64,000 nt of DNA from Deltaproteobacteria bacterium (GCA_016214955.1 JACRMN010000015.1:124001-188000), one strand, 5' to 3'; numbered from the stretch's first letter, positions 7,901 to 45,950 are shown. Numbers and translations: made by a program. Notes: a model not told the origin generated them from the sequence alone.

Positions 7901-8167
7901 GAGGGCGGCTGGAAGGACGCCACCCAGGCGCCTCCGGGGTTCGTCACCACCATCGTCGCCGACTGGGTCGGCCGCTGGGCCGGCGTGGCGCCGGGCGGCG
8001 CGGCGCCCACCGCCCCCGGCACCACCTGCGCCGGCGGCGTGCCCTGCGCCGTGGGCAGCGTCCCCTGGACCTACGAGCCGGTCACCTCCGGCCCGTACGT
8101 GTGGCACTGCCACATCAACTCCCACGAGGACTCGGAGATGATGCGCACCAGCCTGGTGGTCCCGTAG
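4934..8167 (+). CDS. Large secreted multicopper oxidase
   Basis: A 1077-aa protein with an N-terminal signal peptide (cleavage probably after AAAQA). All four copper motifs are present: HLHGGEIPPS at ~461, WFHDHTLGKTHH at ~531, HPMHPHLVKHQ at ~922 and HCHINSHEDSEMM at ~1058. The type 1 and trinuclear copper sites should therefore be intact, and the expected chemistry is substrate oxidation coupled to O2 reduction outside the cytoplasm. It is about twice the usual laccase/CotA length; the extra mass includes a Cys-rich tandem repeat at residues ~252-357. The start is fixed by AGGAGGG six bases before the ATG. The physiological substrate (Mn(II), Fe(II), Cu(I), phenols) cannot be read from sequence; large bacterial forms such as MofA/OmpB types are linked to metals. 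Confidence 0.93.
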   Translation: MRSMLLRAGAVCAGVYASVSIAAAQAIPFTRLNVDPTAANAAFPLQNLNGPSGANYQVSYPYPGQCLASSTNAALFPTLPLCGGAHGPSSFDCAAPGISNQSAGSWAGCGAPVAWKLLRPLLPGLTTPKFVWEVLNPPDYVPDKTRYPGADYYEIGLHEAWGFQALAGAGLFPNPPVGSPRVPGGMQWTGLTCNIAGGCTCPAGLSATFQAQYCPGGVIPLGAPLFTPIWGVGQINMTGGPVTTLLGGSGACSVTGTACNPTVIPTTCAPIPTGSCSVDLSACDPTVLPTTCATVPAPAPGGFCALTTAQACDPAVASTCPVDPATNLPEACIAVAPIAQTCNAGTPIAQTCNATAGNPFVAGPAAPWSSNNYVATWPSINIRASKGTPVVVKWVNEFPNNHVLCTHPDAADWPCSIDRTFMGVKATMDPAIVTSQLTGVPLEGVNRFGSPQQPDNSWVTHLHGGEIPPSTDGFAEKWFGNAVTAAMYNDPAKPRYVTPAFENPLGIALQRPAGNADTYAYPMVQEEATIWFHDHTLGKTHHNVIAGPAGFFPVKEPLKHGPLTNWIPPAAPPAGSEYTWLDPVTEPRDGLNIPLYDLFLAVQDRAFNDDGSINFSNGLGQTIPPPPLGLPGQTPVTAGVNPLVHPTWVPEYFGDHALVNGVIWPKRTVQPGWHRLRIVDGSDSRCYTFGFQRANLPPAPGAAVTPNVPMYVIANDQGYLRNPVRAMQLTMCPGERYELLVDFSNLPGVAPLGQGDVYMVNSAPAPFPVGISPQVAGSIFAHMNVLMAFQVRGTVPGVQSCGELLARAPVAPAGLTWNPANMAANLARGIVSGGMSFYSSICMPVNPALVTDTSFASIRPVMPPPRGSIVRQVYLNEKVDGVSLAPLGMQLNGVPFEYKVTETPKLGTREIWQFVNLTVDAHPMHPHLVKHQVVQRQAFNVNGYKTALCGAPGCMPGPAPGNEMQVVPDVTPFLTGGTGNTVPVTNASVEGGWKDATQAPPGFVTTIVADWVGRWAGVAPGGAAPTAPGTTCAGGVPCAVGSVPWTYEPVTSGPYVWHCHINSHEDSEMMRTSLVVP
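5687..6003 (+). repeat. Cys-rich tandem repeat inside the multicopper oxidase
   Basis: Encodes three related ~24-aa units with the theme C-S-V-x3-A-C-(N/D)-P-T-V-(I/L)-P-T-T-C, followed by the short exact duplication PIAQTCNA ... PIAQTCNA. It lies before the first copper motif, so it is an insertion in the N-terminal part rather than in the copper sites. Regular cysteines suggest disulfide-stapled loops or extra metal binding; this is inference. Confidence 0.7.
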
Positions 8168-10070: not shown

Positions 10071-13000
10071 CTACCCCTCCGTCGCCGGCAAGAGCTCCTC
10101 CACCGGCGAGGGCGGAGGCGGCGGCAGGGCGGTCTGGGGCTCGCGGCGCTTCTTGAAGCGCTGGTGGACCTCGAAGGCGAAGTTGTCCAGCACCTCGGGG
10201 TCGATGGGGTCGCCGTTGAGCGAGAGGGAGAGCGAGAGCAGCCCCTCCTTCTCGGCCACGTGGCAGAACTGCGCCTCGGCGATCTTGTTGGGCATGCACT
10301 CCAGCGGGCCCACGCTCACCGTTGCGTCGATCTCGCGGTTGCGCCAGGCGCGCACCGGCACGCCGATGGTGAGCGGCGTCTCCACCTCCAGCTCCTCGCG
10401 GACGTAGTCGCTGGCGGCCTGGAACACCTCGGGGATGCTGGCGTGCTCCGGCCAGCCCAGGGCGTCGGCGGCGGCGTGGTAGGTGACCGAGAGCAGGCGC
10501 TTGCGCACCCAGTGCTCGATGCGATCCGGGATGCTGCTCTTCAGGCCGCGCTTGTGGGCGATGTAGTCGGAGTACTGGAGGTACTCGGACACCGGCTCCA
10601 GCTTGGCGCGGATGCCGCGCCGCTCCAGCGCCCGGGCCACGAAGTCGTTGGCGAAGGGGTCGCTGCGCACGTAGATCTCGCCCACCACCAGCACGTTGGG
10701 GATCTCGCGCTTGCCCTTCACCGCCGCCAGCTCCCTCGCGAAGCGGCCCACCAGCTCCGGGATGCCGTAGCCTCGGCCGGTGGAGGCCTCGTAGAGCACC
10801 TTGGCGGGCGAGAGGTCGCCGCCGCCGGCCCTTTCCAGCAGCCGCTCCAGCTCGGCCGAGTAGCGGGCGTGGATCTTCTCCGCCGCTCCCTCCTCCAGCT
10901 CCACCGGGCGGACGTCGTGCAGCGCGTCCTCGAGGATGCCGAAGGCAGCCAGGCCCGTGAAGACGATGGCCGAGAAGCCCGAGGGCAGCCCCTTGAAGTA
11001 GTCGCCGAAGGGCGGCGACCAGATCTTCACCCGCTCGCCCCAGCCCAGCCGCTGCAGGATCATGTGGTGCAGATCCCGGTAGGCGCCGAAGCGGCAGGGG
11101 CCGCAGGAGCCGGGCATGAGGAAGAGGAACTGCTCGTCGGTGTGGCGCGCCTGCTCCAGCCTGTCGAGCACGCTCCCCAGCGTCACCGTCATGGGGAGGC
11201 ACTCCTTGCCCGAGGTCTGGCGGCGGCCCATCCGCAGGGTCTCCTGGGTGGGCTGGGCCAGCACCTCGGCCGGCACGCCCAGGCCGCGGATGGCGGCGGC
11301 GGCGGCCTTGGCCTCCGGGCCCATGGGCGGGATGAGCACCCGGGCCTTGCGCTTCACGATCTCGGTGATGAGCTGCGGCTCGACGTGGAGCCGCTTCTCG
11401 TCCTTGGGGGCGGCCCTGACCGCGGCCCGCTGGTCCTCGCGGACGCAGTGCAGGAAGGCCTCGACGCGGGTCTTGGTGCCGGCGTCGCCCGAGTGGCCGT
11501 CGGTCTCGATGATGGCGAAGGGGCGCCCCTCCATCAGCCAGGCGAAGGTGTGGACCGTGAAGCTGTCCGGGCCGCAGGAGTAGTTGGAGCAGAAGATGCT
11601 GTAGACGTCGGGAAGCCGGCGCACGTGCCAGGCGGCGCGGAGGATGCGCTGGCTGTAGCCCCAGAAGACGTCGTCGAACACCGGCGCGTCATCGGGCACC
11701 GGCAGGCAGTCCACCGGGATGGCCACCGCGCCCTGCTCGCGGAGGATGCTGGGCACGTTGGAGTTGAGGACGTCGTTGTGGATGGTGTAGCTGCGGCCCA
11801 GCACCACCACCGGGGTCACGCCCTTCTCGGCGCAGAAGGCCAGCGCCCGGCGGCCCGAGGCCAGGAGCTCGGCGTCGAAGTCGAGCTGCACCTGGCGGGC
11901 CTCGGCCCAGGCCGCCTTCCAGGCGGTGTCCCTCTTCACGCCCAGGTCGGCGGCCAGGGCCTGGCAGGCGGCCAGCAGCTCGAGCGAGTCGAGCGCCCCC
12001 TCGCCCATGTCCACCACCGGGGAGAGGATCCGGGCGTGCAGCCCCTCGCCCAGGTCCCACCGCATCATGTCGGGCGCCGCCTGGACGATGGGGCACACCG
12101 TGCTGAAGCGCTCCTTCTTCACCCGCGGGATCTCGCGGAGCATGGGGAGGAAGAGGAAGTCGGGCTTCCGCCCCGCCATGTCGGCCACCAGCCCGTGGTA
12201 CTGCTGCATCGGGGCGCAGAACGGGACGTTGGCCTCCTCGATGCCGCGCTTCAGCGCCTTGCGGTCGGCGCCGGTGGCCACCGAGACGTCGAAGCCCAGC
12301 CGGTGGAGGAAGGTGGCGAAGAAGGGGAAGAGCCCCTTCAGCTGGAACTCGTCGGTGACCGCCACCACCCGGTTGCCGCGGGGCACGGTGACCTGGTCGA
12401 TGATCCGCTGCACCGCCTCGGCCCGCTCGCGGAAGGGGTCGGGCGAGAGGTCGGGCAGCTTCCTCTTGCGGGTGCCCTTGTCGTAGAGCGAGCAGTTGCC
12501 ACCCCAGGTGAAGCGGCTCTTCTCGCCGGCCACCACGGTGGTGAGCCTGTCGATGCGGCACTTGTTGCCGGCGCCGCCGCAGCCCTGGGTCGACTGGCAG
12601 ACGAAGTTGTCCTTCTTCTCCACCTTGGCCGAGAGGAAGCGCTGGCAGTCCACCGTGGCGGCGCCGGCCAGCGGCAGGTCGTCGAGGGCCAGCAGGCCGA
12701 TGCCGATGGCGCCCATCAGGCCGGGCTTGGGCGGGACGATGACCTCGGCGCCGGTCTGGCGGGCCACCGCCGCCGCCAGGGCGTCGGAGGCGAAGGGCAT
12801 GCCCTGGCAGAAGATCACCTGGCCCACCGAGCGGGAGCCCTTCACGCGGTTGAGATAGTTGGAGATCACCGAGTCGTAGATGCCGGCGATGACCCGCTCC
12901 TGCTCCACGCCGGTGGCCACCGCCTCGTCGATGATCTCGGCCATGAAGACCGAGCAGTGCTGGCCCAGGGCCACACCGCCGTCGCTCTGGAGCGCGGCGC

Positions 13001-14390
13001 TGCCCAGCTGGACCACGTTGTCGATGCCCGAGAAGCGGCGCCCCTGCTCCTCGATGAAGGAGCCGGTGCCGGCCGAGCAGGCCTCGTTCATGGCGGCGTC
13101 GACCACCCGGCCCTCGTTGAGCCGGATGTACTTGGCGTCCTGACCGCCGATCTCGAAGATGGTGTCCACCCGCGGCTCGAAGTGCAGCGCGCCGGTGGCG
13201 TGGGCGGCGATCTCGTTGAGGACGTAGACGGTGTCGCGGCCGAAGCAGGTGCTGAGCAGGGAGCCCACGATCTCGCGGCCGGAGCCGGTGGCGCCGAAGC
13301 CCTTGACCCGGTGGAGCGCCGCCGGGCCGTCGAGGAACTCGCGCATGAGCTGCTGCGCGGCGCCAACCGGGTCGCCGTTGGTGCGCAGGTAGCCCTCCCA
13401 GAGGGCCTCGCGGGTCTCGAGGTCCAGGGCCACCGCCTTGGAGCCGGTGGAGCCGATGTCGAAGCCGAGCAGCACGTCGCGCGGCCCCTCCACCTCGCGG
13501 GCCGGCGGCATGGGCATGCGCTTCACCCGGGAGAGCGCCGCCGCCAGCGACGGCAGCTTCTCCAGGCTGGTGTCCCGCGGCGGCTCCAGGAGCCGGTCGA
13601 GGGAGGGCACCCGCAGGCCGTGCTCCGAGGCGGTGACCGCGCAGCCCAGCGCCTCCAGGAACAGGCCGTCCTCGACGTTGGCGGGGATGAGCTCCATGCC
13701 CTGGCGCCCGGCGAAGGCGCGGAAGTGATCGCGCACGCGCGACGAGCGACAGACGCCGCCGGCCAGCACCATCCGCTTCGGGGCCACCGCCGGCTTCACC
13801 AGCACCTGGACGTTCTCGGCGATGGCGTCGAGGAGGCCGGCGAGGATGCGGTCCTTGCCCTCGCCCTTGTTGGCGAGGTGGGTCATGTCGGTCTTCAGGA
13901 TCACCGGGCAGCGGCCCGAGAGCGGCGCCGGCTCGGCGACGCCGGCGGCCAGAGCGGCGGCGTCCTCGACGCCCATGTCGAAGCGCTCCACCAGCTGCCG
14001 CAGGAAGTTGCCGGTGCCCTGGGCGCAGCGGGAGTTCTCGCGGAACACCTCCACGCCGCCCTCGCGCAGCTCCAGCACCGAGAAGCCGTGGCTGCCGATG
14101 GAGACCACGGTGGCGGGCCCGTCGCCGTGGAGGAAGCGGTGGCCGGCGGCCTGCGCCTGCTTGGCGGGCACGCGCAGGAGCGCCACCTGGCGGCCGAGGC
14201 GGCCGGCCACGGCGGCGCCGTCCACGCGGTCCCAGTCCCAGCCCCGGAGGATCTCCACCAGCGTCTTGCCCGGCTCCTTGTGGTGCTCGGCGACCTGACG
14301 CCGCTCCCAGCGGAGCGTGGAGCCCTCGCGGGAGAGCTCCACCACCTTGATGGTCTCGGCGCCGACGTCGATGCCGATGTACCGGGCCAT
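10071..14390 (-). CDS. Fused 2-hydroxyacyl-CoA dehydratase activase/dehydratase-like protein
   Basis: 1439 aa. Two ASKHA ATPase halves of the BadF/BadG/HgdC type come first: MARYIGIDVGAETIKVVEL at the N-terminus with CAQGTGNFLRQL, then GFDIGSTGSKAVAL at ~305 with ACSAGTGSFIEEQG at ~437. A CGGAGNKCRID cysteine cluster at ~600 precedes a long C-terminal part resembling the CoA-activase DUF2229 and HgdB-type dehydratase regions (GSCGPCRFGAYRDLHH). In known systems the activase uses ATP and a 4Fe-4S cluster to inject a low-potential electron into the dehydratase. No separate dehydratase subunits or CoA-transferase lie nearby, so the substrate is unknown. The ATG follows GAGGAGGATGA. Confidence 0.9.
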   Translation of the reverse strand: MARYIGIDVGAETIKVVELSREGSTLRWERRQVAEHHKEPGKTLVEILRGWDWDRVDGAAVAGRLGRQVALLRVPAKQAQAAGHRFLHGDGPATVVSIGSHGFSVLELREGGVEVFRENSRCAQGTGNFLRQLVERFDMGVEDAAALAAGVAEPAPLSGRCPVILKTDMTHLANKGEGKDRILAGLLDAIAENVQVLVKPAVAPKRMVLAGGVCRSSRVRDHFRAFAGRQGMELIPANVEDGLFLEALGCAVTASEHGLRVPSLDRLLEPPRDTSLEKLPSLAAALSRVKRMPMPPAREVEGPRDVLLGFDIGSTGSKAVALDLETREALWEGYLRTNGDPVGAAQQLMREFLDGPAALHRVKGFGATGSGREIVGSLLSTCFGRDTVYVLNEIAAHATGALHFEPRVDTIFEIGGQDAKYIRLNEGRVVDAAMNEACSAGTGSFIEEQGRRFSGIDNVVQLGSAALQSDGGVALGQHCSVFMAEIIDEAVATGVEQERVIAGIYDSVISNYLNRVKGSRSVGQVIFCQGMPFASDALAAAVARQTGAEVIVPPKPGLMGAIGIGLLALDDLPLAGAATVDCQRFLSAKVEKKDNFVCQSTQGCGGAGNKCRIDRLTTVVAGEKSRFTWGGNCSLYDKGTRKRKLPDLSPDPFRERAEAVQRIIDQVTVPRGNRVVAVTDEFQLKGLFPFFATFLHRLGFDVSVATGADRKALKRGIEEANVPFCAPMQQYHGLVADMAGRKPDFLFLPMLREIPRVKKERFSTVCPIVQAAPDMMRWDLGEGLHARILSPVVDMGEGALDSLELLAACQALAADLGVKRDTAWKAAWAEARQVQLDFDAELLASGRRALAFCAEKGVTPVVVLGRSYTIHNDVLNSNVPSILREQGAVAIPVDCLPVPDDAPVFDDVFWGYSQRILRAAWHVRRLPDVYSIFCSNYSCGPDSFTVHTFAWLMEGRPFAIIETDGHSGDAGTKTRVEAFLHCVREDQRAAVRAAPKDEKRLHVEPQLITEIVKRKARVLIPPMGPEAKAAAAAIRGLGVPAEVLAQPTQETLRMGRRQTSGKECLPMTVTLGSVLDRLEQARHTDEQFLFLMPGSCGPCRFGAYRDLHHMILQRLGWGERVKIWSPPFGDYFKGLPSGFSAIVFTGLAAFGILEDALHDVRPVELEEGAAEKIHARYSAELERLLERAGGGDLSPAKVLYEASTGRGYGIPELVGRFARELAAVKGKREIPNVLVVGEIYVRSDPFANDFVARALERRGIRAKLEPVSEYLQYSDYIAHKRGLKSSIPDRIEHWVRKRLLSVTYHAAADALGWPEHASIPEVFQAASDYVREELEVETPLTIGVPVRAWRNREIDATVSVGPLECMPNKIAEAQFCHVAEKEGLLSLSLSLNGDPIDPEVLDNFAFEVHQRFKKRREPQTALPPPPPSPVEELLPATEG

Positions 14391-14622: not shown

Positions 14623-15018
14623 TCACCGGCCTGCGCCACAGTACCGCTCCACCAGGGCCAGCAGCTCCGGGATGCGGATGGGCTTCTCCAGCCGCCCCAC
14701 GAGCTCCGGCGACCGCAGCTCCGGCGCCAGGTCGAGGTCGGCGGTGATGAGGGCCACCGGGATGGCCAGCAGCGAGGGATCGGCGGCTCGCTGGCGGCAC
14801 ACCTCGGCGCCTCCCATGCCCGGCATGAGCAGGTCGAGGAGCACCAGGCCGGGCCGGAGCTCGCGCATCCGGGCCAGCCCCTCGCCCCCGTTCCTGGCCG
14901 TGGCCACCGGCCAGCCCTCGAGCTCGAGGAGCTCGCGCAGCGTGTCGCGGCTGTCCCGGTCGTCCTCCACCACCAGCACGGTGCGGCGCCCGCCGCCGGG
15001 GACCGGCGTGTCCCTCAC
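14623..15018 (-). CDS. Stand-alone response-regulator receiver
   Basis: 131 aa, a single CheY-like receiver. It has the acidic pair in VLVVEDDRDSRD, the phospho-acceptor Asp in LVLLDLLMPGMGG, the switch Thr in VALITAD and the conserved Lys in GRLEKPI. There is no output domain, so it signals by protein contact or as a phosphorelay link. The GTG start overlaps the upstream kinase stop as GTGA. Final gene of a three-gene coupled signalling unit. Confidence 0.92.
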   Translation of the reverse strand: MRDTPVPGGGRRTVLVVEDDRDSRDTLRELLELEGWPVATARNGGEGLARMRELRPGLVLLDLLMPGMGGAEVCRQRAADPSLLAIPVALITADLDLAPELRSPELVGRLEKPIRIPELLALVERYCGAGR

Positions 15019-16124
15019 GGCGCCTCGCCCCGCGGCAGCTCGAGCGTGAAGGTCGAGCCCTCGCCCTTCTTGCTCTCCACCTTGATGCAGCCGCCATGGG
15101 CCTCGGCCACCAGCCGCGCCACCCACAGCCCCACCCCGAAGCCGCCGTAGTGGTGCTCGGGCACGGCCCGCTCGAAGCGCTCGAAGATGCGGGCCTGGTC
15201 CTCGGGGGCGATGCCGATGCCGCGGTCCCGGACCCAGAGCCGGGCCACCCCGTCCCGGAGCGCCGCGCCCAGGTCCACCGGGCGCCCGGCGCCGTACTTG
15301 ATGGCGTTGGAGAGCATGCTGGCGGCGATGGTCTCGACCCGGCCACGATCCCAGCGGCCGCGCACCGGAGCCGGGGCGTGGATGGCGAGGACGATGCCGG
15401 CGTCCTCCAGCGGCTCGGCGAAGCGCTCCGCCAGCCGGCGCACCAGCTCGGCGAGGTCGAAGGGCTCGGGCGACAGCTCGAGCTGGCCGGTGGTGAGGCG
15501 CGACACCTCCAGCAGCCGGTTCACCAGCTCGCCGAGCCGCTCCGCCGAGCGGGTGGCGGTGCGGACCTTCGTCACCATGCGCTCGTCGGCGGGCTGCTCG
15601 CCGGCCAGCAGCCGCTGCAGGCTCTGGAGCTGGAGCTGCAGCGCGGTGAGCGGGGTCTTGAGCTCGTGCGAGGCGATGGAGAGGAACTGGTCGCGGGCCG
15701 CCACCGCGCGCTGCAGCGCCTCCAGCGTCTCGCGCCGCTCGCGGCGGATGAGAGCGTCCCGCATCTCCCGCTCCACCGCCGGGACGAGCCGGGTCAGGTT
15801 CTGCTTCATCACGAAGTCGCCGGCGCCGGCCTTGAGCGCCTCGACCGCGCTCTCCTCGCCGATGTGGCCCGAGACCAGCACGAAGGGGATCTCCCCGCCG
15901 CCGGCGGCGCGGACCAGGCGCAGCGCCTCGCGCCCGTTGAAGCGGGGCATGCTGTAGTCGGAGATGACCACGTCCCAGGGCCCGCGCTGCAGCGCCGCCT
16001 GGAGGTCGGCTGCGCTCTGCACCCGGGTGACCGCTGCCGCGTAGCCGCCGCGGCGCAGCTCCAGGGCGACGAGCAGCGCGTCGTCCTCGCTGTCCTCGAC
16101 GAGCAGCACCTGGAGCGGCCTCAC
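15015..16124 (-). CDS. Hybrid receiver-histidine kinase
   Basis: 369 aa. The N-terminal receiver domain has VLLVEDSEDD, Asp in VVISDYSMP and Lys in FVMKQNL. A HisKA domain follows with FLSIASHELKTPL (phospho-His), then HATPase_c with N-box SMLSNAIKYG, DRGIGIAPED and GFGVGLWVARL. There is no membrane segment, so it is cytosolic and probably takes phosphate from the upstream kinase on its receiver, which then gates its own kinase. The GTG overlaps the previous stop as GTGA. Confidence 0.92.
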   Translation of the reverse strand: MRPLQVLLVEDSEDDALLVALELRRGGYAAAVTRVQSAADLQAALQRGPWDVVISDYSMPRFNGREALRLVRAAGGGEIPFVLVSGHIGEESAVEALKAGAGDFVMKQNLTRLVPAVEREMRDALIRRERRETLEALQRAVAARDQFLSIASHELKTPLTALQLQLQSLQRLLAGEQPADERMVTKVRTATRSAERLGELVNRLLEVSRLTTGQLELSPEPFDLAELVRRLAERFAEPLEDAGIVLAIHAPAPVRGRWDRGRVETIAASMLSNAIKYGAGRPVDLGAALRDGVARLWVRDRGIGIAPEDQARIFERFERAVPEHHYGGFGVGLWVARLVAEAHGGCIKVESKKGEGSTFTLELPRGEAP

Positions 16125-17638
16125 CGGTCGCCCTCCCGCTCGCCGAGCGTGAAGGAGAAGGTGGCCCCCTGGCCCGGCTGCCCCTCGGCCCAGGCCCGGC
16201 CACCGTGGCGGTGGACGATGCGCTGCAGGGTGGCCAGGCCCACGCCGGTGCCCTCGAACTCCTCGGGCGTGTGCAGCCGCTGGAAGGGCTGGAAGAGGCG
16301 GCCGGCGTAGGCCATGTCGAAGCCGGCGCCGTTGTCCCGCACCAGGTAGGTCCGGCCCTCGGGCCCCTCGCGCGCCTCGAACGCGATGCGAGGCTCGGCC
16401 GCCGGGCGGGTGAACTTCATGGCGTTCTCGAGCAGGTTCACGAGCGCCACCCGCAGCAGCCGGGCGTCGGCATGGGCCTCGACCCCGGGCTGGATGCGCC
16501 ACTCGACGCGGCGGCCGGGCTCGCGGTCCTGCACCTCGTCTGCCACCTCGCGCACCAGGGCGGTGAGGTCGAGCCGCTGCCGGCGCAGCTCGGCGCGGCT
16601 CACCCGCGAGAGCTGCAGGAGGTCGTCGATGAGCATCGACATGCGGCGGCTGGCGGCGCGGATGCGCGCCAGGTAGTCGAGGCCGGACCCGTCGAGCCGC
16701 TCGGCGTACTCCTCGGTGAGGGCCTGGGCGAAGCCGGCCAGGGCCCGCACCGGGGCTCGCAGGTCGTGGGAGACCGAGTAGGAGAAGGCTTCCAGCTCGC
16801 GGTTGAGGTGCAGGAGCTCGCGGGTGCGGTCGGCCACCGCACGCTCCAGCTCGGCGGCGCGGCGCCGCTCGGCGTCGGCCAGCGCCCGCCGGCTGCGCCT
16901 CCGCTCCACGAAGGCGGCGAGCTGCAGGCCGATGTCCTGCGCCGTCTCGGGCAGGCCGGCGAGGGGCGGGGCGCGGCGGGCCAGCAGCTCCACCACCGCC
17001 GCCGTCTCCTTGCCCACCCTCACCGGGAAGGCGAGCGCCGCCTCCCAGGGCGCCTCCAGCGTGCCCGGCCCGTCCACCGCCGCCTGGCCGCTGCGGTGGA
17101 CGCGCCCCGCCAGCCCCTCGTCGAGGTGGCAGCGCTCGTCGCGCCAGCCCGGCGGCTCCGGGGCCGACGGGTCGGCCGACCAGGCGCCGGACGCCTGGAG
17201 CGCGCCCCCCTCCAGCGTCCAGACCCGGGCGGCGTCGAAGCCCAGCTCCACCGCCACCGCCGAGAGCAGGGCCTCGCGGGCGCCCCGCAGGCTCTCGGCC
17301 TCCGCCAGCACCCGCGCCGTCGCCAGCTGCGCGGCCCGGCGCCGCTCCACCTGGCGCCGCTCCTCGGTCAGCTGCTCGGCCCGCTCCCGGGCCTCGAGGA
17401 GCGCCAGCTCGTACATGAGGGAGAGGCGGCGCATCTGGCGCACCGCGAAGGCCGCCAGCGCGATCCCGGCCAGCAGCGCCCCCCCCACCACCACCGACAC
17501 GATCCGCTCGCCGGCGTCCCCGTGGACCAGCTCCCAGACCAGGACGGTGAGCAGTGCGGCCAGCAGCAGCGCCGGGAGGGCCGCCAGCTGCCGAACCAGG
17601 CGACCCAGCTCGCGGCGCTGGCTGTCGAGCGCGATCAT
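16121..17638 (-). CDS. Membrane histidine kinase with GAF-like sensor
   Basis: About 505 aa from ATG 17638; an upstream in-frame ATG at 17704 would add 22 residues. Two N-terminal transmembrane helices (LPALLLAALLTVLVWELV and VVVGGALLAGIALAAFAV) are followed by a coiled coil, a GAF-like region (~125-275), and a second coiled coil into HisKA (YSVSHDLRAPVRALAGFAQ). HATPase_c motifs are VNLLENAMKFT, DNGAGFD and GTGVGLATL. It resembles phytochrome-type HWE/HisKA kinases. It is divergent from the electron-transfer operon starting at 17815, suggesting but not proving a regulatory link. Confidence 0.9.
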   Translation of the reverse strand: MIALDSQRRELGRLVRQLAALPALLLAALLTVLVWELVHGDAGERIVSVVVGGALLAGIALAAFAVRQMRRLSLMYELALLEARERAEQLTEERRQVERRRAAQLATARVLAEAESLRGAREALLSAVAVELGFDAARVWTLEGGALQASGAWSADPSAPEPPGWRDERCHLDEGLAGRVHRSGQAAVDGPGTLEAPWEAALAFPVRVGKETAAVVELLARRAPPLAGLPETAQDIGLQLAAFVERRRSRRALADAERRRAAELERAVADRTRELLHLNRELEAFSYSVSHDLRAPVRALAGFAQALTEEYAERLDGSGLDYLARIRAASRRMSMLIDDLLQLSRVSRAELRRQRLDLTALVREVADEVQDREPGRRVEWRIQPGVEAHADARLLRVALVNLLENAMKFTRPAAEPRIAFEAREGPEGRTYLVRDNGAGFDMAYAGRLFQPFQRLHTPEEFEGTGVGLATLQRIVHRHGGRAWAEGQPGQGATFSFTLGEREGDR

Positions 17639-17814: not shown

Positions 17815-20028
17815 GTGGATCTGAGCCAGACCATCATCGCCGCCGCGTTCGTCGGCGTCGCCGTCGTGTTCGCCGGCACCTACGCGGTGAACCGGTGGAT
17901 GCGCGGCCGCTCCGATTCGGCGCGGCTCGAGGAGGCGTCGGTCGACGACCGCAACCTCCCGCGGTCGCTCCACCCGGTGATCGATCCCGACATCTGCATC
18001 GGCAGCCTCGCCTGCCTGAAGAGTTGCCCCGAGGGAGACATCCTCGGGATGGTGAACGGCACCGCCGCGCTGGTGCACGGCCAGCACTGCGTGGGCCACG
18101 GCCGCTGCGCCGCCGAGTGCCCGGTCTCGGCCATCACCCTGGTGTTCGGCACCGCCAAGCGCGGCATCGACCTCCCCGACGTCAGCGAGGTCTTCGAGTC
18201 GTCGCGCCCCGGCGTCCACGTGGTGGGCGAGCTCGGCGGCATGGGGCTCATCAAGAACGCCATCCGCCAGGGGCTCCAGGCCGCCGACCACCTCGCCAGG
18301 ACCCGCCAGCCCGCGCCCGCCGGGCTGGTGGACGTCTGCATCGTCGGCGCCGGCCCGTCGGGCCTGGCCACCGCGCTCGGCCTCACCCACCACAAGCTCA
18401 CCTACCGGCTGGTGGAGCAGGACAGCGTCGGCGGCACCATCTTCCACTTCCCGCGCCGCAAGGTGGTGATGACCGAGACCGTGAACTTGCCCATCTGGGG
18501 CAGGTTCGGGAAGAAGCGCATCTCCAAGGAGGAGCTGCTGGAGACCCTGCAGAAGGTGATCCACAAGGCGCACATCAAGGTGGAGCAGGGGGTCAAGGTC
18601 AGCGGCATCGAGGGCGAGGACGGCAACTTCACCGTCAAGACCACCGCCGGCGAGGTCAGGGCCCGCAAGGTGGTGCTGGCCATCGGCCGGCGCGGCTCGC
18701 CGCGCAAGCTCGGGGCCCCGGGCGAGGAGCAGTCGAAGGTGGTCTACCGGCTCGACCACCCCGAGCAGTACGACAACGAGAAGGTGCTGGTGGTGGGCGC
18801 CGGCGACGCCGGCGTGGAGGCGGCCTGCCAGCTCGCCAAGGAGTCGAAGGCCAAGGTGTGGCTCTCCTTCCGCGGCGACGCTCCCAAGTGCCGGCCGCCC
18901 AACGCCGCCGACATGGAGGCCCAGGCGAGGGCCGGCCGGCTCACGCTGCTGCCCAAGTCGCAGGTGAAGAACATCGGCGAGAAGGAAGTGACCCTCGACG
19001 TCGGCGGGAAGATGGAGACGATTCCCAACGACTACGTCATCGTCAACGTCGGCGGCGAGCTGCCCACCGAGTTCCTGCAAAAGGCCGGCGTCGAGATGCG
19101 CCGCTACCACGGCGAGGCGCCGGGCCGGAAGGGCGCCAGCCACTCCGCCGCCGCCGACCGCGAGGCGGAGGCGCGGCGCAAGGAGCGCCGGCTCGAGCTC
19201 CTCTTCGCCGTGCTGGGCGTGGTCATCCTGACGTTCCTCGCCTGGCGGGGCTGGGAGTACTACCTGCTCCAGCCGCTGCAGCGGCTCAAGTCGCCCATGC
19301 ACGCGCTCTTCCGGCCGGCGGGCCACTGGGGCCACGGCGTGGGCATCGCCGCCACGCTCTTCATGCTCTCCAACTTCCTCTACGCCCTGCGCAAGCGGGT
19401 GGCCTGGCTCTCGGGCGTGGGGGACATGCGCGCCTGGCTGGTGTTCCACGTCTTCGTGGGCTTCATGAGCCCGCTGGTGATCGCCTTCCACGCCGCCTTC
19501 CAGTCGCGCAACCTGCTGGCCACCGGCACCTCGCTGGCGCTGGGCGTGGTGGTGCTCACCGGCATCATCGGCCGGTACATCTTCAGCCTGGTGCCGGCCG
19601 CCGCCGGCCACGCGCTGGAGCTCGAGGACCTGCAGGCCAGCTTCGTGCGGGCCCGGGCCGAGGTGGAGCCCCTGCTGGAGATGATCCCCAACCCGGGCCC
19701 GGTGAAGCGGCTGTTCGAGTCGGTGACCGAACCGCTGCCCCCGGGGTCGCTCCTGCACTCGATGCTGACCCTGCCCCTGCAGTCGATGCGTTCCCGGGCG
19801 GCGCTGCGCCGCGTGGCGGCGCTCTTCCCCGACGACGAATCGCGCAAGGCCTTCCGGGACGACTTCCTGCAGTGCGAGCGGCTGCGCCTCCAGATCGGCT
19901 TCTACCGCTCCCTGAAGTCGCTGATGCGGATCTGGCGCATCTTCCACGCCTCGCTGGCCACCTTCCTGGTGTTCGCCATCGCCGCCCACATCGGCTTCTC
20001 GCTCTACCTGGGGTACGGCCTCAAGTGA
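17815..20028 (+). CDS. Inner-membrane ferredoxin/FAD-NAD(P)H/b-heme oxidoreductase
   Basis: 737 aa. N-terminal membrane helix (~4-24), then two 4Fe-4S-type clusters in CIGSLACLKSCPEGD (~61) and CVGHGRCAAECPVSAI (~91). A thioredoxin-reductase-like flavin domain follows, with FAD loop VGAGPSGLA (~178) and NAD(P) loop VVGAGDAGVEAA (~327). The C-terminal half is membrane-embedded with two helices each carrying His-x13-His (H545/H559 and H711/H725), the classic arrangement for two stacked b hemes as in ferric reductase and cytochrome b folds. The expected path is NAD(P)H to FAD to Fe-S to hemes b, across the membrane. The next gene overlaps by GTGA and encodes a 20-heme cytochrome, its likely partner. 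The start is GTG; the direction of flow in vivo is unknown. Confidence 0.9.
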   Translation: MDLSQTIIAAAFVGVAVVFAGTYAVNRWMRGRSDSARLEEASVDDRNLPRSLHPVIDPDICIGSLACLKSCPEGDILGMVNGTAALVHGQHCVGHGRCAAECPVSAITLVFGTAKRGIDLPDVSEVFESSRPGVHVVGELGGMGLIKNAIRQGLQAADHLARTRQPAPAGLVDVCIVGAGPSGLATALGLTHHKLTYRLVEQDSVGGTIFHFPRRKVVMTETVNLPIWGRFGKKRISKEELLETLQKVIHKAHIKVEQGVKVSGIEGEDGNFTVKTTAGEVRARKVVLAIGRRGSPRKLGAPGEEQSKVVYRLDHPEQYDNEKVLVVGAGDAGVEAACQLAKESKAKVWLSFRGDAPKCRPPNAADMEAQARAGRLTLLPKSQVKNIGEKEVTLDVGGKMETIPNDYVIVNVGGELPTEFLQKAGVEMRRYHGEAPGRKGASHSAAADREAEARRKERRLELLFAVLGVVILTFLAWRGWEYYLLQPLQRLKSPMHALFRPAGHWGHGVGIAATLFMLSNFLYALRKRVAWLSGVGDMRAWLVFHVFVGFMSPLVIAFHAAFQSRNLLATGTSLALGVVVLTGIIGRYIFSLVPAAAGHALELEDLQASFVRARAEVEPLLEMIPNPGPVKRLFESVTEPLPPGSLLHSMLTLPLQSMRSRAALRRVAALFPDDESRKAFRDDFLQCERLRLQIGFYRSLKSLMRIWRIFHASLATFLVFAIAAHIGFSLYLGYGLK

Positions 20029-21845
20029 CCCGCAAGCTCCTCCTCGGTCTCGGGCTCCTGCTCGCGGCCGCGCCCGCGGCGCGGGCCGACCTCTTCTCCC
20101 CCGGCGAGCTCTCGCGCCCTCACGCCTCGGTGGAGGGCATCAGCAACTGCACCAAGTGCCACCCGCAGGGCCAGCAGCTCTCCCAGGGCGCCTGCCTCTC
20201 CTGCCACGAGGAGCTCAAGGGGCGCATCTCCGAGAGCCGCGGCTACCACGGCAGGCTCCAGGGCAAGGACCGCGACTGCTGGGCCTGCCACCACGAGCAC
20301 CAGGGGCGCGACTTCGCCATGCTCGACTGGGGCCCGGGCGGTCGGAAGGGCTTCGACCACACCCGCACCGGCTGGCCGCTCAAGGGCAAGCACGCCCAGG
20401 CCGACTGCGACAAGTGCCACGACCGGCGGCTCATCGCCGACGCCGGGGTGAAGGCGCTGCTCGAGAAGCAGCCCACCCGCAAGACGCAGCTGGGCGCGCC
20501 GGCGACCTGCGCTGCCTGCCACGCCGACGAGCACCGCGGCCAGGTGGGCAACGAGTGCCAGAAGTGCCACGGCGAGGCGGCCTGGAAGCCGGCGGTCAGC
20601 TTCGACCACGCCCGCACCGCCTTCTCGCTGCTGGGCAAGCACGTCAAGGTGGCCTGCGACAAGTGCCACCCCAAGGTCGACGACCCGGTGGAGCACGTCG
20701 GGCGCCTGCAGCCCAGGAACCGCACCTACCTGAAGATGAAGCCGGTGCAGCACGCCAGCTGCCTCGACTGCCACAAGGACTACCACCAGGGGAAGCTGGG
20801 CGAGGACTGCAAGAAGTGCCACACCGAGCTCGACTGGCGGAACATCGTCACCGGCTCCACCACCGATCGCGCCTTCCACGACAAGACTCGCTACAAGCTC
20901 GAGGGGGCCCACGCCACCGTGACCTGCAAGGCCTGCCACGGGCCCAACCCCGGTGTGCCGGCGCAGTTCAAGGACCTGCCCTTCGCCCACTGCGTGGACT
21001 GCCACGTGGACGCGCACGGCGGCCAGATGAAGAAGCGGGACCCGAACGGCGGCCGCTGCGAGCGCTGCCACACCGTCCAGTCCTTCGAGCAGGCCCGCTT
21101 CGGTCCCGAGGAGCACAAGGCGTCGCGCTACCCGCTGGAGGGGGCCCACCGGCTGGTGGCCTGCTCGGCCTGCCACCAGAGCGACCCGCGGGTGGGCGAG
21201 CGCTTCCCCGCCGCCGCCCGCGAGGAGCTCCAGCGGCGCGGCCGGCCGGTGCGCCTGGCGCTGGCCATCTACAGCGTGGCCGGCGACCTCTCGCGCTGCG
21301 AGACCTGCCACGCCGACCCCCACGGCGGCCAGTTCGACAAGCGGGCAGCGGGCAAGGGCTGCACCGCGTGCCACGAGCTGGCCTCGTTCGCGAAGACCCG
21401 CTTCGACCACGACAAGGACACCAAGTTCGCGCTCGAGGGGAAGCACCGGAAGACCGCCTGCGCCTCCTGCCACCCCTCGGTGAGGGGGCCGCAGGGCGCG
21501 GTGCAGGTGAAGTACGCCGGGGTCGAGACCGCCTGCGCCGGCTGCCACGCCGACGTCCACGGCGCCCAGTTCGCGCCGCGCGCCGGGGACCCCACCGACT
21601 GCGCCCGCTGCCACGCGGCCGACGACTGGAAGAAGACGCTGCGCTTCCGCCACGAGCCGCCCTTCACCAGCTACAAGCTCCTCGGCAAGCACCAGAAGGT
21701 GGAGTGCAAGGCCTGCCACCCGGAGGTGGCGCAGGTCAGGCTCGGCGGCGACCTGAAGCTGCGCAAGTACCGCGGCGTGCCCACCGCCTGCCAGAGCTGC
21801 CACGTCGACTTCCACAAGGGCGCCTTCCGGGGGTACGAGCCGTGA
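20025..21845 (+). CDS. Periplasmic 20-heme cytochrome c
   Basis: 606 aa with a signal peptide (TRKLLLGLGLLLAAAPAARA). I count 20 CXXCH heme c sites, from CTKCH through CQSCH near the C-terminus. The chain is built of a repeated module: C-x2-CH-x-D-x-H-x-G-Q, a second C-x2-CH, then W-x4-5-F-x-H, F-x-L-x-GKH and a third C-x2-CH. There are free histidines to serve as second axial ligands. Such a chain should form a long electron wire across the periplasm. The GTG start overlaps the oxidoreductase stop as GTGA, and the next cytochrome overlaps its stop the same way. Confidence 0.96.
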   Translation: MTRKLLLGLGLLLAAAPAARADLFSPGELSRPHASVEGISNCTKCHPQGQQLSQGACLSCHEELKGRISESRGYHGRLQGKDRDCWACHHEHQGRDFAMLDWGPGGRKGFDHTRTGWPLKGKHAQADCDKCHDRRLIADAGVKALLEKQPTRKTQLGAPATCAACHADEHRGQVGNECQKCHGEAAWKPAVSFDHARTAFSLLGKHVKVACDKCHPKVDDPVEHVGRLQPRNRTYLKMKPVQHASCLDCHKDYHQGKLGEDCKKCHTELDWRNIVTGSTTDRAFHDKTRYKLEGAHATVTCKACHGPNPGVPAQFKDLPFAHCVDCHVDAHGGQMKKRDPNGGRCERCHTVQSFEQARFGPEEHKASRYPLEGAHRLVACSACHQSDPRVGERFPAAAREELQRRGRPVRLALAIYSVAGDLSRCETCHADPHGGQFDKRAAGKGCTACHELASFAKTRFDHDKDTKFALEGKHRKTACASCHPSVRGPQGAVQVKYAGVETACAGCHADVHGAQFAPRAGDPTDCARCHAADDWKKTLRFRHEPPFTSYKLLGKHQKVECKACHPEVAQVRLGGDLKLRKYRGVPTACQSCHVDFHKGAFRGYEP

Positions 21846-22756
21846 GCCGCCTCGCCGCCGTTCCCGCCCTGCTGCTCCTCGCCGCCCTGGCGGCGCCGGC
21901 CCGCGGTGCCGCGCCCGCCCCCAGGGCGGTGCCCCTGCCGCCGCCGCCGGGCGCCGGCAAGCCCGACCTCCGCGCCCCGCCGCCCGCCACCATGCACGGC
22001 GAGACCCGCTGCGAGCGCTGCCACACCCCCGAGCAGTGGGGCGACGTGGCCTTCGCCCACGAGCGCACCGGCTTCCCGCTGCGCGCCGAGCACAAGAAGG
22101 TGGGCTGCAAGGCCTGCCACCCGGTGGACTTCCAGCGGCCCCTGGCCCACGACTGCGGGAGCTGCCACCGCGACGTGCACCGCGGCCAGCTCGGCATCCA
22201 GTGCCAGGGCTGCCACGACGAGAGCTCGTGGAAGAGCCGCTTCGACGCCGACGCCCACCGGCGCACCGGCTTCCCGCTCACCGGCCGCCACGCCTTCCTG
22301 GCCTGCGAGGAGTGCCACGGCAACCGGCTCAACCGCGGCTTCGCGCGCGCCGTCTCCTCCTGCGCCGACTGCCACCAGCGCGACCTGGCCCGCGGCCAGG
22401 CGGTCATCGACCACGGCGGCTTCGGCACCGACTGCCGCCGCTGCCACTCCCCGTGGCGCTTCCAGAACGCCTTCTTCCCCGACCACGAGAAGTGCTTCGC
22501 CATCGGCGGCGGCCCGCACGCCGGCATCGCCTGCCTGAAGTGCCACACCTCGCTCTCCTCCACCACCGCCACCGGCGCCTGCTTCACCGACACCGCCGCC
22601 TGCACCCGGTGTCACCTGGTGCCCGACATGCAGGCCAAGCACCTCAGCGTGCTCGGCTTCCCCGGCGGGCCGCCCTACGACCGCAAGTGCTACGAATGCC
22701 ACCGGTTCAGCACCAAGACCGGCAATGCCCTGAGGGGGGCGAGGAGTCCGCGATGA
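21842..22756 (+). CDS. Periplasmic 10-heme cytochrome c
   Basis: 304 aa, signal peptide (VPALLLLAALAAPARG region), then 10 CXXCH sites: CERCH, CKACH, CGSCH, CQGCH, CEECH, CADCH, CRRCH, CLKCH, CTRCH, CYECH. It uses the same module as the 20-heme protein (CHRDVHRGQLG, FAHERTGFPL), so the two are paralogous. Translationally coupled at both ends (GTGA and ATGA overlaps). A link between the 20-heme wire and the outer-membrane components is the natural role by context. Confidence 0.95.
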   Translation: MSRLAAVPALLLLAALAAPARGAAPAPRAVPLPPPPGAGKPDLRAPPPATMHGETRCERCHTPEQWGDVAFAHERTGFPLRAEHKKVGCKACHPVDFQRPLAHDCGSCHRDVHRGQLGIQCQGCHDESSWKSRFDADAHRRTGFPLTGRHAFLACEECHGNRLNRGFARAVSSCADCHQRDLARGQAVIDHGGFGTDCRRCHSPWRFQNAFFPDHEKCFAIGGGPHAGIACLKCHTSLSSTTATGACFTDTAACTRCHLVPDMQAKHLSVLGFPGGPPYDRKCYECHRFSTKTGNALRGARSPR

Positions 22757-23715
22757 GCCCATCCCTCCGCCTGCTGCCCGCCCTGGCCCTGCTCCTCGCC
22801 GCCTGCCAGAAGGAGACCGTCGAGGCCCCCTGGCTCACCTACCCGGGCCTCGACGGCCACGCGCGCTACCTGCCGCTGCTCAACACCTCCCACGACCCCA
22901 ACACCCAGGCCAGCGTCACCTGCGCCTCCTGCCACCCGGGCACGACCTTCACCCAGCCGGTCTGCACCGGCTGCCACGGCCAGGCGGCCACCGCCGGCCT
23001 GCACACCAGCCTGGCCACCGGCCAGACCATCGCCGGCTACGAGTGGACGCCGCCGCCGCCGGCCCCCTGGCAGCGCCCCAGCTGCCTCACCTGCCACCCG
23101 CAGGGCGGCATCCCCGACGCCAGCCACCACAGCTTCTTCCCGGTGGACGAAGCCTCGTCCCACAGCCGCGCCAAGCTGGGCTCGGCGGCCGGCTCCTTCT
23201 GCCTGGCCTGCCACAGCGACCCGCTCGACAAGGCCAACGTCCAGAAGCTGAACTGCGTGCTCTGCCACCAGGGCGCGGGGGTGCAGGTGCCGCTCCCCGG
23301 CAGCCACGCCACGCTGCTCACCGTGGACTCGTTTCCCATCGTCCCCACGCCCCGCGACTGCCTGCGCTGCCACGACGGCGGCCAGGTGGACCGCGTCGCG
23401 GCCCACGGCTCCCTGCCGGGGCCGCCCGGCTTCGGCAGCGCCGGTCCCTGGGACAGCGACCCCATCTGCGGCACCGACCCGCTGCGGCCCACGGAGGGCT
23501 GCAAGCACGGCAGGCAGGGCTCGCCGGTGAACTGCTTCGCCTGCCACGACGCCCTGCCCCCGGCCTACGGCGGCACCGGGCCCGGCCTGCCCAGCCGCCC
23601 CTGGGCGCAGGACTGGAACCTCCCGGCCACCTCGCTCGGCCAGACCGCCGGGCCCACCAACGCGCGGGGGACGGCCCGGGTCCACGCCTGCGCCGGCTGC
23701 CACCAGCCCCAGTGA
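22753..23715 (+). CDS. 8-heme lipoprotein cytochrome c
   Basis: 320 aa. The N-terminus MSPSLRLLPALALLLAAC is a lipoprotein signal with the lipidated Cys at 18. There are 8 CXXCH sites (CASCH, CTGCH, CLTCH, CLACH, CVLCH, CLRCH, CFACH, CAGCH). The spacing and intervening sequence differ from the two preceding cytochromes, so it is a distinct family, resembling outer-membrane cytochrome lipoproteins. It is followed after one base by a beta-barrel gene, the order seen in porin-cytochrome complexes. Which face of the outer membrane it occupies is not decidable here. Confidence 0.93.
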   Translation: MSPSLRLLPALALLLAACQKETVEAPWLTYPGLDGHARYLPLLNTSHDPNTQASVTCASCHPGTTFTQPVCTGCHGQAATAGLHTSLATGQTIAGYEWTPPPPAPWQRPSCLTCHPQGGIPDASHHSFFPVDEASSHSRAKLGSAAGSFCLACHSDPLDKANVQKLNCVLCHQGAGVQVPLPGSHATLLTVDSFPIVPTPRDCLRCHDGGQVDRVAAHGSLPGPPGFGSAGPWDSDPICGTDPLRPTEGCKHGRQGSPVNCFACHDALPPAYGGTGPGLPSRPWAQDWNLPATSLGQTAGPTNARGTARVHACAGCHQPQ

Positions 23716-23716
23716 C

Positions 23717-25495
23717 ATGACCAGCCTCGCCACCATCGCCGCCGCGCTGCTGGTCGCCGCCACCCCGCAGAAGGGGAAGGCGAAGAAGAAGGTCGCGCCC
23801 GCCGCGGCCCGCCAGGCCGTCCCCGACGGCGAGAAGGCCGCCGCCGGCATGAAGCTGGAGAGGAAGCCCGGCAAGCCGCGCCCCACCCTGGGCGGCCAGC
23901 AGCCCTCCCCGGGCAACCCGCTGCCGCTGCGGCCGCGGCCCTTGCGTCCCCTCGACCAGGCGGGCACGGTGCGCAACGTCATCCTGCGCCGCGCCTACCT
24001 CGACGCCGGCACCAGGGACGGGCTGGCGGTGGGCCAGGTGCTGCAGCTTCGCCGCAAGGGCGAGGCGGCCGGCACCTGCACCATCGAGGCAGTGAGCGAG
24101 CGCAACGCCGTCTGCGCCGGCGGCGGCGTGCGGTCCGGCGATACGTTCCCGGTCAACCCGGCGGCCGCGGGCGCGCGCCCGGCCGACCTGCCTCCGCGCC
24201 CCTCGGCCGAGGAGCAGGCCCGGCGGCTCCAGGCCATCGGCCAGGTGGGCTTCGCGCTGGTGGACTTCAAGTCCACCCGGGTGGTCGAGATCCCCGACCG
24301 GCTCCGGCGCGTCGACCTGGGCTTCACCCACGTGAGCTTCCTGGGGAGCGACCGCGCCGCCGACCACCAGGAGCAGGTGTACGCGGTGGCCCGCGGCGTG
24401 CCGCTGTGGCGCGGCTCCCGGCTGGACCTCGACCTCACCGCCATCTACCGCAGGGACGCCGCCGACCCGGAGCGCTTCGAGCCGGGCAAGAAGGCGCTGG
24501 TGCTGGTGCGCGAGGCCTCGCTCTCCTGGGCCGAGCCGGCGGCCACCTGGCGCTTCGCCGCCGGCCGCGTGCTCCCCTGGTACATCCCCGGCGGCGCCAC
24601 CTTCGACGGGGTGCAGGCCGGCTGGCGCCCGAGCCGCGAGGCGGAGCTGGGCCTCTTCGGCGGCGCCGTTCCCGACCTCATGACCACCGCGCCCGGCGTG
24701 GACCGGGCCACCGGCGGCGCCTACTGGCACGCCGAGCGGCAGGTGGGCGGCCACAACCTGCTCCGCACCGACGGCCGCGTCGCCTGGGTGAAGCTGCCGG
24801 CCTCGAAGAGCCGCATCGAGGCCGAGGCCAGCTTCCGCGCCTGGCTGCTGCGCCACCTCGACGTCGCCGGCCAGGTCCGCTTCGGCATGGGCGACTACAC
24901 CTCCCCCAACAAGCTCGACGCCGCCCGCATCGACGTGGGCTGGGTCCAGCCGCAGGTCTGGTCGGTCTACGGCGGCTTCCGCTACGACGACACCCGGGTG
25001 CCCGACCTCGCGGCCCCGGCCCTCTACGCCGGCCGCACCCGCCACGCCTCGGGCGCCTTCTCCTTCGACAGGCTTGGCTGGCTGCAGCTCCGGGCCACCG
25101 GCGGACACGCCGAGGACCCGGTCTCGAAGGAGAAGCGGAGCTGGGTGGGGCCCGAGGTGTGGATGCCGCGGGCGCTGGGGAGGTGGGGAGGCGCCGGCGC
25201 CGGCTACTCGGAGCAGATCGGCAAGTCCTCGGGGCGGAGCGCCTGGGTGCAGGCCGATCTCGCGCCCGGCACCCGCTTCCGCATGCTGACCCGCGCCTCC
25301 TGGTTCATGGACGAGCGCCCCTCGCCGCTGCAGGCCGACCACGGCGTGGGGCTCATGGCCGCCGCCACCGCCGACCTCACCCCCTGGCTGCGCTTCCGGC
25401 TCTCCGCCATGGGCCGCTACGCCATCCCGCCCTCCGAGGCCGCACCCAGCGCCTGGGGCAGCCTGGTGTCGGCGGGGATCGAGGGAAGGTACTAG
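23717..25495 (+). CDS. Outer-membrane beta-barrel of the cytochrome cluster
   Basis: 592 aa. A signal-like N-terminus (TSLATIAAALLVAAT) is followed by a Lys/Pro-rich linker, a small domain to ~residue 150, then alternating amphipathic strands (e.g. RLDLDLTAIYRR, WRFAAGRVLPWY, GAGAGYSEQIG). It ends in an aromatic residue (GIEGRY), as outer-membrane barrels do. No sequence family is recognised by eye. One base separates it from the lipoprotein cytochrome. Context makes it the porin sheath of a porin-cytochrome conduit; experimental proof is absent. Confidence 0.82.
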   Translation: MTSLATIAAALLVAATPQKGKAKKKVAPAAARQAVPDGEKAAAGMKLERKPGKPRPTLGGQQPSPGNPLPLRPRPLRPLDQAGTVRNVILRRAYLDAGTRDGLAVGQVLQLRRKGEAAGTCTIEAVSERNAVCAGGGVRSGDTFPVNPAAAGARPADLPPRPSAEEQARRLQAIGQVGFALVDFKSTRVVEIPDRLRRVDLGFTHVSFLGSDRAADHQEQVYAVARGVPLWRGSRLDLDLTAIYRRDAADPERFEPGKKALVLVREASLSWAEPAATWRFAAGRVLPWYIPGGATFDGVQAGWRPSREAELGLFGGAVPDLMTTAPGVDRATGGAYWHAERQVGGHNLLRTDGRVAWVKLPASKSRIEAEASFRAWLLRHLDVAGQVRFGMGDYTSPNKLDAARIDVGWVQPQVWSVYGGFRYDDTRVPDLAAPALYAGRTRHASGAFSFDRLGWLQLRATGGHAEDPVSKEKRSWVGPEVWMPRALGRWGGAGAGYSEQIGKSSGRSAWVQADLAPGTRFRMLTRASWFMDERPSPLQADHGVGLMAAATADLTPWLRFRLSAMGRYAIPPSEAAPSAWGSLVSAGIEGRY

Positions 25496-45927: not shown

Positions 45928-45950
45928 GAGCGCGCGAGCCGGCGCGCCTC
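45928..45950. terminator. Hairpin at the convergent gene ends
   Basis: GAG-CGCGC (45928-45935) pairs with GCGCG-CTC (45942-45950, one bulged C) around a 6-base loop, in the 23-bp gap between two convergent stops. No T tract. Confidence 0.3.

Follow-up and report, generated by a model that had tools for sequence, protein, structure and literature searches.

A conserved five-gene operon of Myxococcota as a candidate porin-cytochrome electron conduit with a predicted flavocytochrome entry module

The question raised by a five-gene operon (genes A to E) in the genome of a Deltaproteobacteria bacterium is whether its products form a single route for electrons through the cell envelope. The operon occupies positions 17815-25495 of a 64,000-nucleotide stretch, hereafter the window (GCA_016214955.1, JACRMN010000015.1:124001-188000), and the window's genome belongs to the same family as Anaeromyxobacter. 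In soils and sediments, this genus reduces Fe(III), Mn(IV), and U(VI), and its outward electron route is poorly defined; the operon is a conserved candidate, distinct from the published porin-cytochrome (Pcc) locus. In our view, the five proteins probably form a single electron conduit through the cell envelope, representing a new porin-cytochrome lineage with a built-in flavocytochrome entry. The genes are as follows.

17815-20028, + strand: gene A, predicted inner-membrane flavocytochrome, 737 amino acids (aa)
20025-21845, + strand: gene B, 20-heme periplasmic cytochrome with a signal peptide, 606 aa (CXXCH count, hydropathy)
21842-22756, + strand: gene C, 10-heme periplasmic cytochrome, 304 aa (CXXCH count, signal peptide)
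22753-23715, + strand: gene D, 8-heme lipoprotein cytochrome, 320 aa (CXXCH count, lipobox LLAAC)
23717-25495, + strand: gene E, predicted outer-membrane beta-barrel, 592 aa (AlphaFold2 (AF2), Foldseek, VIA-align 2)

An initial annotation made from the DNA alone (the sequence-only reading) had described these genes as a complete conduit. All five were re-found on the + strand, as were their junctions (GTGA, GTGA, and ATGA overlaps and a 1-nt gap), the CXXCH counts of 20, 10, and 8 in B, C, and D (38 together), the lipobox that marks D as a lipoprotein, and the aromatic last residue of E, which is Tyr. Of the 39 matches to the heme-motif pattern TGYN6TGYCAY in the window, all but one (38) lie within the operon; 1.7 matches are expected for the whole window, and none of 100 shuffles attained 39. 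The window's genome is multiheme-rich overall, with 346 + 271 matches of this pattern vs. 72 + 76 for the reversed one. A scan of the operon for a promoter and a terminator gave no match for the former and nothing meaningful for the latter. As the window is GC-rich and has numerous long shadow open reading frames (ORFs), the genes might be chance neighbors or a gene-calling artefact; however, comparative data already refute this, the order and the CXXCH positions being conserved across Myxococcota at median identities of 33-53%, and we give this explanation virtually no weight.

The sequence-only reading had proposed to seek the same gene order in other Myxococcota, and the order A-B-C-(D)-E is indeed kept in ∼32 loci from at least four families. 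Among 195 Myxococcota genomes, A is present in 56 and E in 45, and all 45 genomes with E also have A (hypergeometric P = 4e-34, to be taken only as a guide, as it is uncorrected for kinship). Pairwise divergence runs in parallel among the four genes A, B, C, and E (correlations of 0.87-0.96), as would be expected if they are inherited together. A search for A in 84,980 species genomes, in a mode that detects close relatives only, yielded matches only in Myxococcota.

The heme-binding sites of the two periplasmic cytochromes are nearly invariant: all 20 CXXCH motifs of B (34 homologues) and all 10 of C (33 homologues) are at least 95% conserved. Protein B contains Cytochrome_C7/c3 domains (Pfam), and its signal peptide is its sole hydrophobic segment. 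Spare histidines suffice for bis-His ligation, with 25 for the 20 hemes of B and 11 for the 10 hemes of C. At four loci (L042, L075, L087, L060), B and C form an in-frame fusion of 27-30 hemes that has one signal peptide and no second one, and that runs smoothly across the junction. The fusion genomes are G036, which is a single contig, G183, with two such loci, and G156, where the protein runs off the contig. The existence of fused proteins indicates that B and C probably operate as one contiguous wire. A-B fusions in the gene calls at L067 and L080 were discounted, as their junctions are out of frame and reflect frameshifts in metagenome-assembled genomes. Searches of PDB sequences with B, C, and E returned no matches, and B and C score far under the cut-off of the DmsE/MtrA-type model.

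The lipoprotein slot is more variable. The N-terminal pattern H..FPI..G.H..C..CH of D is common to slot lipoproteins of 8-14 hemes, and is also seen in proteins of 27-64 hemes adjoining clusters that have no slot gene. D-type proteins were called by a strict regular expression with controls and by N-terminal alignment, and further ones were added by eye. Across 34 loci with both A and E, the strict expression gave 8 lipoproteins in the slot and 10 nearby; inspection by eye added five slot genes (L040, L041, L042, L044, L046) and two neighbors (L057, L070), and in the remaining nine loci no D-type lipoprotein was recognised nearby. Since the slot varies among loci, the terminal cytochrome appears to be the evolving part of the system. 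A hidden Markov model of the D family was useless, as CXXCH spacing alone made it match every multiheme protein. Near homologous clusters, we also observed giant lipoprotein-like cytochromes, at L043:3-7613 (64 CXXCH) and L074:278-4513 (51 CXXCH).

Neither E nor its relatives have Pfam matches up to an E value of 1, and MtrB_PioB (PF11854) matches neither E nor any other protein of its own genome. The AF2 model of E, built from an alignment of six sequences, has ∼22 beta strands at residues 198-591 and a small N-terminal beta domain at residues 82-145 with conserved Cys121 and Cys133; its mean predicted local distance difference test score (pLDDT) is 68 and its predicted template modelling score is 0.56. 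The 50 best Foldseek matches of this model are nearly all outer-membrane barrels. In VIA-align 2, E aligns with OpdQ, an OprD-type porin, at Z 18.8 and a root-mean-square deviation of 3.8 Å over 270 residues, and with TonB-dependent receptors at Z up to 18.0. The model thus points to a barrel, and the non-barrel outcome that would have undone the sequence-only reading did not occur. MtrB is absent among the listed Foldseek and VIA-align 2 matches, which is not evidence against an MtrB fold.

The nearest folds of E among the matches listed are OprD/Occ substrate channels, and this bears on another function for the operon, namely the reduction or detoxification of a soluble substrate in the periplasm, with E as the substrate channel and the 38 hemes as a periplasmic reductase and electron store. 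There is a precedent in ExtI of Geobacter, whose deletion alters the response to selenite and tellurite but not to Fe(III) citrate (PMC5877670), and the absence of D from a part of the family would fit as well. However, similarity of barrel folds does not indicate the substrate; all hemes have ordinary CXXCH motifs, with enough histidines for bis-His ligation and no sign of an active-site heme; and most clusters are accompanied by lipoprotein cytochromes of the D type, with as many as 64 hemes. Periplasmic reduction thus seems quite unlikely.

What would feed electrons into a conduit is suggested by A, which has an N-terminal transmembrane helix at residues 7-25 and a multi-helix C-terminal membrane domain (hydropathy), with a ferredoxin-like domain (Fer4_10) and a flavin adenine dinucleotide (FAD)/NAD(P) domain (Pfam, NCBIfam). 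As the helices have positively charged flanks, the redox domains are likely cytoplasmic. The ferredoxin-like domain carries two motifs, C61-x5-C67-x3-C71P and C92-x5-C98-x3-C102P. Loss of the second cysteine from both 4Fe-4S motifs is an unusual pattern that is near-universal in homologues: this position is Ser64 in 39 of 43 homologues in the first motif (CIGSxxC; Cys in one) and His95 in 41 of 43 in the second (CxGHGxC). Because each motif retains three of the four cysteines, the clusters may be [3Fe-4S] or have non-Cys ligands. Hence, A is probably an iron-sulfur (Fe-S) protein, as described earlier, with an uncertain type of cluster.

The FAD/NAD(P) domain (residues 172-431) is nearest to YpdA/Bdr, the bacillithiol disulfide reductase family, by Pfam and NCBIfam models and by PDB sequence matches. 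Its score against TIGR04018, 147 bits, is below the equivalog cut-off of 340 bits, and therefore A is not a YpdA orthologue. A matches Pyr_redox_3 above the cut-off, and the glycines of its Rossmann motifs are invariant in 43 sequences; by these motifs and by sequence similarity, the domain is of the YpdA oxidoreductase type. In the same set, Rossmann position 333 is Ala in 39 sequences and position 353 is Arg or Lys in all, and the second strand ends without an acidic residue in nearly all homologues; A is more likely to prefer NADPH over NADH.

For the C-terminal 290 residues of A, no Pfam family scores above threshold. In each of the five C-terminal domains that were scanned, Ferric_reduct (PF01794) is matched below threshold (10-16 bits vs. 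a cut-off of 28, best E value 0.013), and the membrane domain is not a member of this family by score. Six histidines of this domain are conserved (496, 507, 545, 559, 711, and 725), and H545, H559, H711, and H725 are each present in 41 of 43 sequences, forming the pairs H545-x13-H559 and H711-x13-H725, spaced by 14 residues, on two helices. In bc1 and NADPH oxidase (NOX) enzymes, two stacked transmembrane b hemes are held by such paired histidines on two helices, and by this ligand pattern A is predicted to be a NOX/ferric reductase-like di-heme relay. Both the NAD(P)H-type FAD domain and the transmembrane b-heme ligands noted earlier are thus borne out by domain matches and conserved histidines.

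The genome also encodes a paralogue of A, 48% identical (G000:C26:339306-341513; L076:8801-11029), with no adjoining B, C, or E. Located about 4-5 kb upstream of this paralogue is a gene for what seems to be a monomeric isocitrate dehydrogenase of the NADP type, together with one for a malate dehydrogenase; a D-like lipoprotein with 14 hemes is encoded ∼5 kb downstream.

Taken in order, the proteins suggest the following path. The cytoplasmic FAD domain of A would accept hydride from NAD(P)H, likelier NADPH, as its domains suggest, and the odd Fe-S domain could possibly exchange electrons with a ferredoxin. Judging by ligands and topology, two b hemes would then pass single electrons over the inner membrane in the manner of NOX and ferric reductases, one held by His545/His711 close to the cytoplasmic face and the other by His559/His725 close to the periplasmic one. 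The fusions and conservation suggest that B would span the periplasm and hand electrons to C, the two acting as a 30-heme wire. By analogy with MtrAB, C would sit in or under barrel E and cross the outer membrane, and the last transfer, to an acceptor outside the cell (Fe(III) or Mn(IV) oxides or humics, for example), may fall to D or, in other species, to its giant counterpart. We infer the NADPH donor, the presence of two b hemes, the outward direction, the insertion of C into E, the surface exposure of D, and the acceptor.

The entry step could also work otherwise within the same conduit: the membrane domain of A could be mainly a menaquinol/menaquinone site, or A could run in reverse, with electrons from outside or from quinol reducing NADP+ or ferredoxin. 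Many enzymes bind quinone through di-heme b domains, the conserved His496 and His507 on the periplasmic side are superfluous to a two-heme relay, the ferredoxin-like domain offers a second cytoplasmic partner, and sequence cannot reveal direction. Yet no quinone-site family matched A in the Pfam scans, the sole recurring weak match of cytochrome type is Ferric_reduct, which is not a quinol-oxidising family, and the reduction of NADP+ requires a low-potential external donor. We regard this alternative as unlikely.

By its gene content, the operon can be placed in the functional class of porin-cytochrome conduits. A barrel, as judged by structure prediction, is encoded beside multiheme cytochromes; C and B, with 10 and 20 hemes and signal peptides, provide for the periplasmic cytochrome of ∼8-12 hemes and barrel-spanning length; and lipoprotein D is the candidate for a surface cytochrome, with a D-type protein missing or unrecognised in nine of 34 loci. 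The logic of a 10-heme cytochrome, a barrel, and a surface cytochrome is that of MtrCAB, MtoAB, and PioAB, and C matches MtrA in heme number; by sequence, however, the operon is not a member of this group, as E lacks PF11854 and B and C fall below the DmsE/MtrA model cut-off.

The Pcc clusters of Anaeromyxobacter and Geobacter (PMC4245776) also have a barrel beside periplasmic multiheme cytochromes, often with a lipoprotein cytochrome. The Anaeromyxobacter Pcc is a separate locus, in our set encoding a 434-aa porin and a 345-aa 12-heme cytochrome (G032, L098), which we recognised by estimated position, size, and heme count only; the published cytochrome has 338-344 aa and 12-14 hemes (PMC4245776). 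E shows no significant similarity to this presumed Pcc porin (BLASTP E value 0.86) and hence is no detectable homologue of the group IV porin. A Pcc porin homologue with 40% identity is encoded at a separate locus of the window's own genome (G000:C22:96558-97802, L102), a second independent conduit candidate there.

The sequence-only reading had held that known conduits normally rely on separate quinol dehydrogenases. This is true for CymA, CbcL, and ImcH, but the ext cluster and some mtr/pcc clusters carry inner-membrane modules of their own: Geobacter extHIJKLMNOPQS includes a Rieske protein and a cytochrome b (PMC5877670), and some mtr/pcc clusters include MtrH/MtoC or Dester_0351-type b/c cytochromes (PMC4245776). 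Like our operon, ext unites in one cluster an inner-membrane entry module with a porin and several multiheme cytochromes (PMC5877670, PMC6148476); unlike it, ext has the Rieske and cytochrome b entry rather than an Fe-S/FAD/b-heme chain, and it additionally encodes a rhodanese-like protein and a cytochrome that is a putative selenoprotein. For Pcc clusters, PMC4245776 mentions no FAD or NADH protein. The predicted order NAD(P)H, FAD, two transmembrane b hemes is that of NADPH oxidases and ferric reductases, whereas the flavin domain of A is clearly YpdA-like, N-terminal to the membrane domain, and preceded by a degenerate ferredoxin domain. The unusual features are therefore the putative entry chemistry, with ferredoxin-like, FAD/NAD(P), and di-heme b domains in one chain, and the apparently unrelated porin. 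We found no description of this operon, or of an Fe-S/FAD/b-heme entry protein in a conduit cluster, in the open-licence literature.

The overlapping genes, fusions, co-occurrence, and conserved order all count in favor of a conduit. Several points weigh against it. Direct outflow from NADPH would bypass the quinone pool and save no obvious energy; among the structural matches listed, E is closest to substrate channels rather than to MtrB; the AF2 model of A was of such low quality (mean pLDDT 56) that it was neither used nor taken into a fold search; A is also encoded apart from B, C, and E, as the paralogue shows; and nine loci have no recognised D. In sum, a complete conduit with a built-in entry is partly supported: the barrel, three cytochromes, FAD domain, b-heme ligands, gene order, and co-occurrence stand, the whole less firmly.

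A more specific scheme can be proposed tentatively, with a probability somewhat short of even: a NOX-like NADPH flavocytochrome with Ser/His-substituted ferredoxin clusters, hard-wired through a 30-heme periplasmic cable and an undescribed porin family to the surface, bypassing the quinone pool and conserved across Myxococcota. If so, extracellular electron transfer would couple the NADPH pool directly to extracellular acceptors. If A is NADPH-driven, the conduit would be fed from the soluble nicotinamide pool, and a single-operon wire from NADPH to the surface could be useful for redox balancing and bioelectrochemical engineering.

Directly upstream of the operon and divergent from it, histidine-kinase-like and response-regulator genes (14623-17638, - strand) may be its regulators, but this neighborhood is not retained in relatives. 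Next to them, a 1439-aa CoA-enzyme activase (BcrAD_BadFG/DUF2229) is encoded at 10071-14390 (- strand), and a shadow ORF of 1874 aa overlaps it on the + strand; in two relatives (L039 and L040), genes of similar length sit just upstream of A. A 1074-aa secreted multicopper-oxidase-like protein at 4943-8167 (+ strand) is a possible metal-oxidation enzyme. Three consecutive large secreted genes at 45949-62323 (- strand) encode a 1912-aa protein with RCC1/Ig-like repeats, a 653-aa protein with an fn3 match, and a 2893-aa protein without a Pfam match.

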